Both the position numbers and the translations under genes were made by a program. Below, piece after piece: positions 37,541-40,622 of a DNA stretch of 64,000 nucleotides. Source of the stretch: Halorubrum trapanicum (GTDB lineage: Archaea; Halobacteriota; Halobacteria; Halobacteriales; Haloferacaceae); assembly GCF_002355655.1 (NCBI RefSeq), contig NZ_AP017569.1, forward strand, positions 2,294,001 through 2,358,000, in the 5' to 3' direction. The notes beneath the pieces are model-generated. The model worked only from the letters and a program-made list of their open reading frames with translations. It was not told the origin of the DNA and did not search any database. Every line of letters begins with the position of its first letter. Position 1 is the first letter of the stretch.

Positions 37541-39061
37541 TCAGGGGTGCGCCGGGACCTCCAGCCGGATCGTCGTCCCGTCCGCGCCGGTGTCGACGTC
37601 GAACTCGCCGCCCGCCTTCGCCACGACCCAGTACATGAGCCAGATGCCGAGCCGGTCGGCGTGGGTCAGCGACGTCTCGCCCGCCTCCAGCACCTGCGTC
37701 TCGTGGTCCGGGATCCCGGGGCCGTCGTCCGCGACCTCGATCGCGATCCACCCCGGCGGACGGCGCTCGACGCGCACCTCGACAGACGGCGACGGCGCGT
37801 CGTTGTGTTTCACGGCGTTCTCGACCGCCTCCGCGACGGCGACGGGGAGGCCGACGACCGTCACCCCGATCGGATCGTCGTCCGGAAGCGCCAGGGTCAC
37901 CTCGGCCTCCGGGTAGCGACTGCGGGTCCGGTTCCGGATCTCGATCAGCTCGTCGCGGAGGTCGATCGGGGCGTCGAGCGGGGGCGCGGAGACCGTCTCG
38001 TCGACTTTCTGGACGGCGGCCGCGATCCCCGTGAGGTCCGCTGCCGTCTCGGCGATCACGTCGAGTGCCCGGCGTTGCGACTCCTCGTCGGGACCCTTTC
38101 GGAGCAGGTCCGCGTACCCCGAAATGAGGTTCATCTTGTTCCGGAGGTTGTGGTTGAGTACCCGGGCCATCACCTCCAGCCGCCGCTCGCGGATCTTCCG
38201 ATCGGTGATGTCCGTCTGGAACCCGACGAAGTGCGTGGTCTCGCCCGCCTCGTTCCGCAGGGGTTCGATCTGGAGCCGGTTCCAGAACTTCTGCCCGTTC
38301 GCTCGGTAGTTGAGGACGTCCACGTCGACCGGTCGCTCCTCGTCGAGCCCCGCCCGGATCTCGTCGGTCGTCTCCTCAGAGGTGTCCGGTCCCTGAAGGA
38401 ACCGGCAGTCCTCGCCGAGCCGTTCCTCGCCGTGGCCGGTCAGCGACTCGAACTCCTCGTTGAGGTACACGAGCGGGTTGTCGTCGCCGTCCGCCGCCCG
38501 CGCGAGGGTGATCCCGACCGGCGCCTCGTCCATCGATCGCTCCTTGAGCCGCAGGTCCGCGACGGTCCGTCGGAGCCGGAGCGAGGTCGTCCGGCGCTCG
38601 ATCAGGTTCGAGACCCGCGTGAGCAGCGCCCGCCGGGCGACAGGCAGCTCGATCACGTCGTCGACGCGCTCCCAGGCGCGGTCGGTCGGCTGCGTCCGGG
38701 CGTTCTCCCCGACCAACAGCACGAACGGCAGGAACGCGGGGCCGGCCCGTTCGCGGCGGGCGTCCAGCGCGTCCCCGATGGCCTCGAACGCGCCCGCGTC
38801 GAGGAGACAGCAGTCGAACTCGGCGTCGAGCGCGGCGGGGTCGGCCGCGGCCCGGATTCGGTACCGGTCGCTGAGCGCCTCGGCGAGCAGCTCGCGGTCG
38901 CGGTCGGCGTCCATCAACAGGAGGACCGTCGCGTCGTCGCCCGGTGACGACGTCTCCGTGCGCCCCTGGTTGGGGGCTCGGCTATCGCCGGGGGCCGAGT
39001 CGGTGACGGCGGACCCGTCGCTGTCGGCGCCACCGACAACCGGACCCGACTCCGAACCCAT
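37541..39061 (-). CDS. LOV-domain histidine kinase with degenerate receiver
   Basis: The 506-residue cytoplasmic sensor kinase begins with a receiver-like domain (about 44-155) that has acidic residues near 51-53 and D88 but lacks the conserved Lys. The PAS domain (about 175-288) has blue-light LOV hallmarks: GEDCRFLQG with C219, flavin-contact N251 and N261 in NYRANGQKFWN, and Q282 in VGFQTD. The Asp before C219 replaces the usual Asn. The kinase core has H304 in LNHNLRNKMN, N415 in ENAVKHN and DDGPGI at 445-450. It is divergent from a KaiC-like gene, sharing a promoter region. Confidence 0.85.
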   Translation of the reverse strand: MGSESGPVVGGADSDGSAVTDSAPGDSRAPNQGRTETSSPGDDATVLLLMDADRDRELLAEALSDRYRIRAAADPAALDAEFDCCLLDAGAFEAIGDALDARRERAGPAFLPFVLLVGENARTQPTDRAWERVDDVIELPVARRALLTRVSNLIERRTTSLRLRRTVADLRLKERSMDEAPVGITLARAADGDDNPLVYLNEEFESLTGHGEERLGEDCRFLQGPDTSEETTDEIRAGLDEERPVDVDVLNYRANGQKFWNRLQIEPLRNEAGETTHFVGFQTDITDRKIRERRLEVMARVLNHNLRNKMNLISGYADLLRKGPDEESQRRALDVIAETAADLTGIAAAVQKVDETVSAPPLDAPIDLRDELIEIRNRTRSRYPEAEVTLALPDDDPIGVTVVGLPVAVAEAVENAVKHNDAPSPSVEVRVERRPPGWIAIEVADDGPGIPDHETQVLEAGETSLTHADRLGIWLMYWVVAKAGGEFDVDTGADGTTIRLEVPAHP

Positions 39062-39102
39062 CTCCCTTCCAACGGGGCGGGGAACCCACTAAGAACTACC
39101 CA

Positions 39103-39109
39103 TTTATAT
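39103..39109 (+). promoter_or_regulatory. TATA box of the KaiC-like gene
   Basis: TTTATAT is centred 29 bases before the ATG at 39135. The apparent earlier start at 39108 lies inside this box, so 39135 is the better start. The reverse reading (ATATAAA) is about 42 bases upstream of the divergent kinase gene, which may use it or a TTCTTAG nearer by. Confidence 0.7.
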
Positions 39110-39134
39110 GCCGGTCGAGGGCGACTGGGGAGCT

Positions 39135-40622
39135 ATGACATCGCCAACGGCCGAGCGAGCGTCGACGGGGGTCGCCGGGCTCGACGAGGTACTGTCCGGG
39201 GGCCTCATCCCCGCGCGGAGCTACATGGTCCGCGGGCAGGCCGGGAGCGGCAAGACGATCCTGAGCTTCCACTTCCTCCAGCAGGGCGTCGACGAGGGAG
39301 AGACGGCGCTGTTCGTCAACCTCGAAGAGGACCTCCGGGACCTGAAGGCGAACGCGGCCGCGCTCGGCTTCGACACCGACGCGATCGAGTTCCTCGATTT
39401 GAGTCCGAACGCCGAGGCCTTCGTCGAGGACGAGTCGTACGAGGTGTTCGAGCCCGCGGAGGTGGAGCGCGAGCCGCTGACCGACCGGATCGTCGAGGGC
39501 GTGACCGAGGTCGATCCCGACCGCGTCGTCGTCGACCCGCTGACCCAGCTCCGCTTCCTCCTGTCCGACGACTACCAGTTCCGGAAGCAGGTGGTCGGGT
39601 TCATGCGATTCTTAAAGGATCAGGGGGCGACGGTGCTTTTCACCGTCCAGAACACGGAGTCGCTGCCGACGGACGACCTGGAGTTCATCACGGACGGGAC
39701 GATCCGGCTGGACGCGGCGGAGTACGGCAAGACGATCAGCGTGCCGAAGTTCCGCGGGTCGGCGACCCAGAGCGGCGACCACGCCTACCGGGTCACCGAC
39801 TCCGGCATCGAGGTGTACCCCGCGCTCCAGCCCGGACAGCGCGACCGGGACCTCGAGTTCGAACAGATCTCCTCGGGGATCCCGGAGGTGGACCAGCTGC
39901 TCCACGGCGGGATCGAACGCGGCACCGTCACCATCGTGAGCGGGCCGACCGGGGTGGGGAAGACCACCCTGAGCACGCAGTTTATGAAGGAGGCCGCGGG
40001 CCGCGGGGAGCGCTCCGTCATCTACCTCTTCGAGGAGAACCGGGAGACGTTCCTCACCCGGTCGCGCGCCGTCAACATCCCGGTCGACGAGATGCTGGAG
40101 CGGGGGACCCTCCAGGTGAACGAGGTGGAGGCGCTAGAGCGGTCGCCGCAGGAGTTCGCGCGGATGGTCCGCGACGAGGTCGAAGAGCGGGGCGCCGACA
40201 TCGTCATGGTCGACGGCATCTCCGGCTACCGGCTGACGCTCCGCGGCGGCGACGACCAGATGCTCCAGCAGATGCACGCGCTCGGTCGGTACCTCAAGAA
40301 CGCGGGCGTGACGGGGATTTTCGTCGACGAGACGCGGAACGTCACGGGCGAGTTCCACGCGACGATGGAGAACATCAGCTACCTCGCGGACAACATCGTC
40401 TTCCTCCGGCACCTGGAGGTCGACGGCGAGATCCGCAAGGCGATCGGCGTCTTAAAAAAGCGGACGAGCGACTTCGAGCGCACGATCCGCGAGTTCAAGA
40501 TCACGGAACACGGGATCACCGTCGGCGAGCCGATGTCCGGGCTCCGCGGCATCCTGAGCGGCGCGCCCGAGATCGTCGACCGGGAGCGGCGCGGGGCGGA
40601 GCGCGACGACCGCGACGAGTAG
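39135..40622 (+). CDS. KaiC-like ATPase with two RecA domains
   Basis: The 495-residue protein has two KaiC/RecA domains. P-loops are GQAGSGKT (34-41) and GPTGVGKT (270-277), and each is followed by a catalytic Glu pair: E64-E65 in NLEED and E300-E301 in FEENRE. This is the domain count of the cyanobacterial clock protein KaiC, which haloarchaea share without KaiA. It likely forms a hexameric ring that signals through ATP turnover or phosphorylation. The divergent LOV kinase is the natural candidate partner (inference). It ends in an Arg/Glu/Asp-rich tail. Confidence 0.93.
   Translation: MTSPTAERASTGVAGLDEVLSGGLIPARSYMVRGQAGSGKTILSFHFLQQGVDEGETALFVNLEEDLRDLKANAAALGFDTDAIEFLDLSPNAEAFVEDESYEVFEPAEVEREPLTDRIVEGVTEVDPDRVVVDPLTQLRFLLSDDYQFRKQVVGFMRFLKDQGATVLFTVQNTESLPTDDLEFITDGTIRLDAAEYGKTISVPKFRGSATQSGDHAYRVTDSGIEVYPALQPGQRDRDLEFEQISSGIPEVDQLLHGGIERGTVTIVSGPTGVGKTTLSTQFMKEAAGRGERSVIYLFEENRETFLTRSRAVNIPVDEMLERGTLQVNEVEALERSPQEFARMVRDEVEERGADIVMVDGISGYRLTLRGGDDQMLQQMHALGRYLKNAGVTGIFVDETRNVTGEFHATMENISYLADNIVFLRHLEVDGEIRKAIGVLKKRTSDFERTIREFKITEHGITVGEPMSGLRGILSGAPEIVDRERRGAERDDRDE

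Follow-up and report, generated by a model that had tools for sequence, protein, structure and literature searches.

Where a gene for a candidate blue-light receptor kinase lies next to one for a KaiC-like ATPase, the question arises whether the two proteins form one signalling module and, if they do, which of them signals to the other. Such a divergent pair is found in the window analysed here, a stretch of 64,000 nucleotides from the 3.08 Mb genome of Halorubrum trapanicum. We regard it as fairly probable that the two genes encode one module, in which KaiC would signal to the kinase via a pseudo-receiver domain while a LOV domain would add blue light as an input. The evidence behind this reading consists of the conserved pairing, the near exclusivity of the pseudo-receiver, the swapping of the parts behind it, the co-divergence of the partners, the enrichment of LOV domains and a promoter region shared by both genes.

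The two genes and their common promoter region

The kinase gene (37541..39061, minus strand) encodes a protein of 506 aa, which according to domain searches combines a disordered start, a pseudo-receiver, a LOV domain, a HisKA-type domain and a HATPase_c domain. A preliminary description of this DNA had recognized the LOV core with its cysteine and flavin contacts as well as the pseudo-receiver, and its coordinates, strands and domains all hold. The LOV/PAS domain (approximately residues 175-289; 38195..38539, minus strand) matched PAS_9 in Pfam (2e-14), and its best matches in the PDB were LOV photoreceptors with E-values down to 3e-27. Cys219 (codon 38405..38407, minus strand) sits in GEDCRFLQG, compared with the reference motif GXNCRFLQ, which by sequence places the domain among the photoactive LOV domains, and the flavin-contact positions Asn (LNY), Asn (FWN) and Gln (GFQ) are present; the paired LOV domain is thus predicted to undergo flavin photochemistry. 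Catalytic parts follow, with HATPase_c (approximately residues 400-504; 37550..37864, minus strand) scoring above the Pfam cut-off (50.8 bits, E 3e-13) and HisKA just below it (25.2 versus 26.9 bits). His304 in NHNLRN (codon 38150..38152, minus strand) is the predicted phospho-acceptor, and the HisKA histidine together with HATPase_c identifies the protein as a histidine kinase. In the AlphaFold model of the full-length kinase, the domains were poorly placed (pTM 0.45, pLDDT of the LOV domain approximately 40), and therefore we make no claim on their arrangement.

The aspartate directly preceding Cys219, where the reference has asparagine, had been pointed out before as a change that may tune the photocycle. 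We confirmed the aspartate and found that in this genus it is almost confined to the LOV domain paired with KaiC. By hand count, it occurs in the paired domain in approximately 42 of 43 Halorubrum genomes, whereas the other LOV domains of the same genomes carry asparagine in approximately 84 of 87 cases and aspartate in approximately 3. One genome in which the paired LOV domain has asparagine (G149, locus L138) has cleanly lost KaiC, a single case that proves nothing. The cysteine itself is kept in most members of the pair; it is replaced by His at L097 and by Trp at L141, where KaiC is lost too.

On the plus strand, the divergent gene (39108..40622) encodes a KaiC-like ATPase of 504 aa as listed, with two complete KaiC domains, each having the Walker A Lys, the paired catalytic Glu and the Walker B Asp, which confirms the earlier assignment of two domains with catalytic glutamates and adds the Walker residues. 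The region between the genes (39062..39134) contains a TATA box, ATTTATAT (approximately 39102-39109), the core of which is invariant in 12 aligned loci, and a conserved CACTAAGA element on the kinase side; it represents a conserved promoter region common to both genes. Because the listed KaiC start at 39108 overlaps the invariant TATA box and the orthologues align from approximately residue 9-10, the ATG at 39135, approximately 26 bp downstream of the box, is more likely the start.

The kinase N-terminus is a pseudo-receiver

Single sequences of the N-terminal domain (approximately residues 44-163; 38573..38932, minus strand) were assigned to no family by Pfam, with just two weak Response_reg matches among 48. 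A profile of the 48 sequences matched receivers, best the second receiver of PleD (E 7e-16), and the AlphaFold model of the domain adopts a receiver fold (pLDDT 93.3) with PleD residues 150-287 (REC2) as the best structural match (Z 16.3, rmsd 2.3 over 129 residues). Across the 48 sequences, the acidic pair DD, the Thr and the Lys of the catalytic site are mostly or wholly gone, Lys being absent among the residues seen at its position, while the Asp57-like residue is retained in 46. Since a pseudo-receiver is defined by a receiver fold that lacks at least one of the five catalytic residues (PMC12632262), the domain is a pseudo-receiver, one that was previously uncatalogued as a domain. Pseudo-receivers of CikA and KaiA act in the cyanobacterial clock, which provides a precedent, and the same review knew no functional study of any archaeal pseudo-receiver (PMC12632262). 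The dN/dS values indicated purifying selection, with the pseudo-receiver evolving faster than the remainder.

Constant association of the pseudo-receiver with this KaiC subfamily

A survey of 52 Halorubrum genomes yielded a KaiC orthologue in 40, and judged from coordinates the LOV kinase lies divergent beside it in 40/40, while five of the remaining genomes have the kinase with no full KaiC match and seven have neither. The initial proposal of a joint locus had been staked on the two genes being neighbours in relatives, and for this genus that is now documented. As the flanks are conserved within Halorubrum as well (block TFE...Trm56-purC), the pairing within the genus is by itself weak evidence and could be inherited synteny. 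However, divergent pairs with different flanks were also found in Haloplanus-like, Halovenus-like and other Halobacteriales genomes, and across genera, phyla, orientations (divergent or co-directional) and varied flanks the pseudo-receiver remains adjacent to KaiC. With an iterated profile built on the kinase N-terminus, the domain was located beside 125 of 135 KaiC copies, from loci that were picked around KaiC or the kinase and are not a random sample; ten copies, e.g., L111/L156, L124 and L125, have no strong pseudo-receiver partner nearby.

For an unbiased test of KaiC adjacency, 40 genomes of the taxonomic family were searched in full for the domain alone. At E<1e-20 there were 36 matches, and for 34 of them KaiC lies no more than approximately 1.3 kb away. 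The sole strong exceptions, with no adjacent KaiC match in the 40 genomes, are G002:C1:1548937 and G037:C8:136930. Per genome, both domain and KaiC were present in 27 cases, neither in 12, the domain only in one and KaiC only in none (Fisher 2e-9, from related genomes representing 28 genera). Furthermore, the trees of KaiC and partner mirror each other (r 0.57, compared with at most 0.19 after shuffling), and where a genome has two pairs, the variation of each KaiC follows that of its own partner (r 0.75); of 2000 swaps of partners within genomes, just one gave a value as high. Taken together, these results identify the pseudo-receiver as the partner domain that stays constant in this KaiC subfamily and that is found almost solely in KaiC partners, and they suggest a joint function of the two proteins.

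LOV domains are enriched among interchangeable parts

Behind the constant domain, the partner proteins carry no sensor, one PAS, several PAS, a LOV domain, or GAF-BAT-HTH_10 in place of the kinase, so that with N for the pseudo-receiver the architectures beside KaiC read N alone, N-HK, N-PAS-HK, N-LOV-HK, N-LOV-PAS-HK and N-GAF-BAT-HTH_10. The stand-alone matches beside KaiC (L103, L106, L117) are closer to ordinary receivers, and it is uncertain whether they represent the same domain. A BAT/HTH_10 end instead of a kinase was seen at L115, L116, L162, L164, L166 and L214, where it is possible that a single protein passes KaiC output to DNA.

LOV domains occur in 14 of the 30 KaiC-adjacent pseudo-receiver kinases, compared with 53 of 1255 other HATPases in the 40 genomes (odds ratio approximately 20, Fisher 2e-11), which corresponds to an approximately ten-fold enrichment among KaiC partner kinases; these are hand sums, in which the approximately 1255 comprise all other HATPases and related genomes are counted singly. 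A background taken from the histidine kinases of the fetched loci (5/22) was too small and too biased to show enrichment, and therefore the whole-genome LOV counts were used. In 11 of the 18 genera with such kinases, at least one pseudo-receiver partner kinase has a LOV domain. The earlier suggestion that light sensing and KaiC are joined at one locus is in this part supported by the conserved pairing, the LOV counts and the mostly kept cysteine, whereas its second part, an oscillator or timer, is not.

Direction of signalling

In the module that we favour, the KaiC-like ATPase, probably a hexamer like its relatives, would report its nucleotide or phosphorylation state, which would reach the kinase through the N-terminal pseudo-receiver. 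Blue light would act on the same kinase via the LOV cysteine adduct, and both inputs would be integrated at His304, from which the phosphate would then be passed to an unlinked response regulator. Physical contact, the direction from KaiC to the kinase, the flavin photochemistry and the target of phosphotransfer are the parts of this scheme that we infer.

The direction can be approached through losses. Throughout the 52 Halorubrum genomes, the KaiC orthologue was never seen without the kinase beside it, apart from two genomes with a frameshifted kinase and an intact KaiC (L145, L146), possibly due to sequencing error. Conversely, the kinase is kept where KaiC is broken or gone at L136, L137, L138, L140 and L144, of which L137 and L144 may owe their breaks to sequencing errors, and in Haloplanus-like genomes at L141-L143; L139 is cut by the contig end. 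At L140 (3018-4263), a single deletion from KaiC residue ~470 to kinase residue ~173 took most of KaiC together with the whole pseudo-receiver and left an open LOV-kinase frame. Because KaiC was repeatedly lost with the kinase kept, the kinase does not depend on KaiC in every species, and because the kinase often outlives KaiC while the reverse is nearly unseen, KaiC acting on the kinase would fit this asymmetry better than the opposite direction.

In that opposite direction, light would alter the kinase and the pseudo-receiver would dock on KaiC and change its ATPase activity, assembly or phosphorylation, making KaiC an effector on other proteins. The pairing and the domain evidence apply to it identically, the stand-alone receiver-like proteins beside KaiC (L103, L106, L117) could act only on KaiC, and archaeal KaiC proteins such as ArlH are described as effectors in work cited in PMC13286277. 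We nevertheless consider it rather unlikely, since within Halorubrum the 40 genomes with KaiC offer no opposite loss save the two frameshifted kinases, and since the DNA-binding BAT/HTH_10 output behind the pseudo-receiver in other lineages suggests an output on the partner's side.

Comparison with the circadian clock

The preliminary description had further drawn on the cyanobacterial analogy to propose a KaiC-like oscillator or timer. Such a device would be entrained by light, dispense with KaiA and KaiB and use the LOV kinase for both input and output. Both ATPase domains are intact with their catalytic Glu, and in Haloferax volcanii the expression of the cir genes tracks light and dark, whereas knockouts of cir genes, cirC among them, disturb it (PMC3941300). 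However, KaiB (PF07689) was not found in the genome of the pair at E 1e-3, while the positive control in Synechococcus was detected. Of the KaiC residues Ser431-Thr432, here Ser424-Tyr425 (40377..40382, plus strand), the serine is kept and the threonine is a tyrosine in this protein and in 127 of 136 members of the subfamily, archaeal and cyanobacterial. The scores also fall far under the cut-offs of the circadian KaiC equivalog TIGR02655 (182.9 versus 546 bits) and of PRK09302 (293.6 versus 408 bits), and in the extracts of the literature on haloarchaeal cir genes considered here no persistent free-running rhythm is shown. A KaiABC-type oscillator is therefore not supported for this pair, and we regard a light-entrained oscillator or timer as improbable.

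That the genes are mere neighbours, regulators held together by synteny or co-expression with no direct interplay, would agree with the conserved Halorubrum block and the common promoter region but is highly improbable, as the adjacency of pseudo-receiver and KaiC persists across genera, orientations and phyla with differing flanks and as, in the swap test, KaiC varies together with the partner encoded beside it.

Distribution beyond Halorubrum

Members of the KaiC subfamily together with a kinase carrying the same pseudo-receiver were also found in the cyanobacteria Kastovskya, Pegethrix, Myxosarcina, Phormidesmis and Acaryochloris (plasmid). The cyanobacterial KaiCs at L114, L119, L121, L122 and L217 are 46-57% identical to the haloarchaeal KaiC and have the same partner domain, and the distribution suggests transfer between cyanobacteria and haloarchaea. 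On proteobacterial plasmids (L218-L224, including pSymA of Sinorhizobium meliloti), KaiC genes have kinase genes downstream that overlap them or lie close by, with no KaiB annotated nearby. The N-termini of these kinases resemble a diverged pseudo-receiver (profile-profile probability 86, E 5e-6 against A1), and their best PDB matches, weak ones, are receivers; they are therefore likely, not certainly, a diverged version of the same domain. A megaplasmid of Halorubrum ezzemoulense (L225, 6523-9890) carries a second KaiC with two pseudo-receiver kinases behind it and a CheW gene nearby. In the plasmid records H16, H17, H26 and H47, KaiC-family genes are publicly annotated as gvpD, probably by broad similarity.

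It is conceivable, though we consider it quite doubtful, that haloarchaea, cyanobacteria and Proteobacteria have a KaiC system in common in which KaiC would be read by a dedicated pseudo-receiver instead of KaiB, with exchangeable sensors and outputs driven by that domain, and which in haloarchaea would be coupled to blue light and act as a timer set by light.

Relation to known systems

The cyanobacterial KaiABC clock with SasA and CikA resembles the Halorubrum pair in that KaiC is tied to a histidine kinase and that pseudo-receivers occur in CikA, which binds KaiB, and in KaiA (PMC12632262). In contrast, the Halorubrum pair has no KaiB match, no KaiB-like domain of the SasA type and a tyrosine in place of Thr432, and its pseudo-receiver is N-terminal in a kinase that is encoded beside KaiC. 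As in the LOV histidine kinases of the Brucella/Rhizobium type and in YtvA, a LOV sensor is expected to control a signalling output; however, the Halorubrum kinase stays below the equivalog cut-offs of YtvA (121.1 versus 250 bits) and BluLightHisKinLov (107.4 versus 450 bits), and a KaiC-linked pseudo-receiver is absent from those models. A closer relative in habitat is the haloarchaeal LOV domain ALovD-1, located in a PAS kinase, which according to PMC12202551 photocycles at up to 3 M salt and has the canonical Asn before the Cys, where the Halorubrum paired LOV has Asp, and for which the sections considered report no link to KaiC.

Operons that join kaiC to kinases have been described in bacteria (PMC3899966), and archaeal KaiC-like ATPases have already been proposed as hubs tied to signal transduction parts (Makarova 2017, as cited in PMC5847659). 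The constant pseudo-receiver and the LOV enrichment, of which we found no description in the portions of the literature on KaiC hubs considered, distinguish the present system and make this locus a specific candidate, with a pseudo-receiver that is almost always retained next to KaiC.

Also published is the position of cirC, a double-domain KaiC gene of Haloferax volcanii, between orc2 and ‘fixL’, the latter reported as an oxygen sensor, and the response of the cir genes to light and dark (PMC3941300). Both haloarchaeal loci have a double KaiC next to a kinase gene, with light-dependent cir expression in H. volcanii, whereas the Halorubrum genes are divergent and the kinase is shorter. The Haloferax-like loci L188, L191, L192, L196 and L197, whose genus was deduced from a 59% match and a similar gene order in Haloferax larsenii, have the order Orc1/Cdc6 - KaiC - pseudo-receiver/LOV/PAS kinase, which is the order reported for cirC. 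Because these relatives have a pseudo-receiver-LOV-PAS kinase in the place of fixL, they suggest that the neighbour of cirC in H. volcanii may be a pseudo-receiver LOV kinase, which would make it a sensor of blue light rather than of oxygen. The pair thus provides a concrete and testable route by which light and KaiC signals could meet in salt-loving archaea, and offers a possible reason for the light response of the H. volcanii cir genes.
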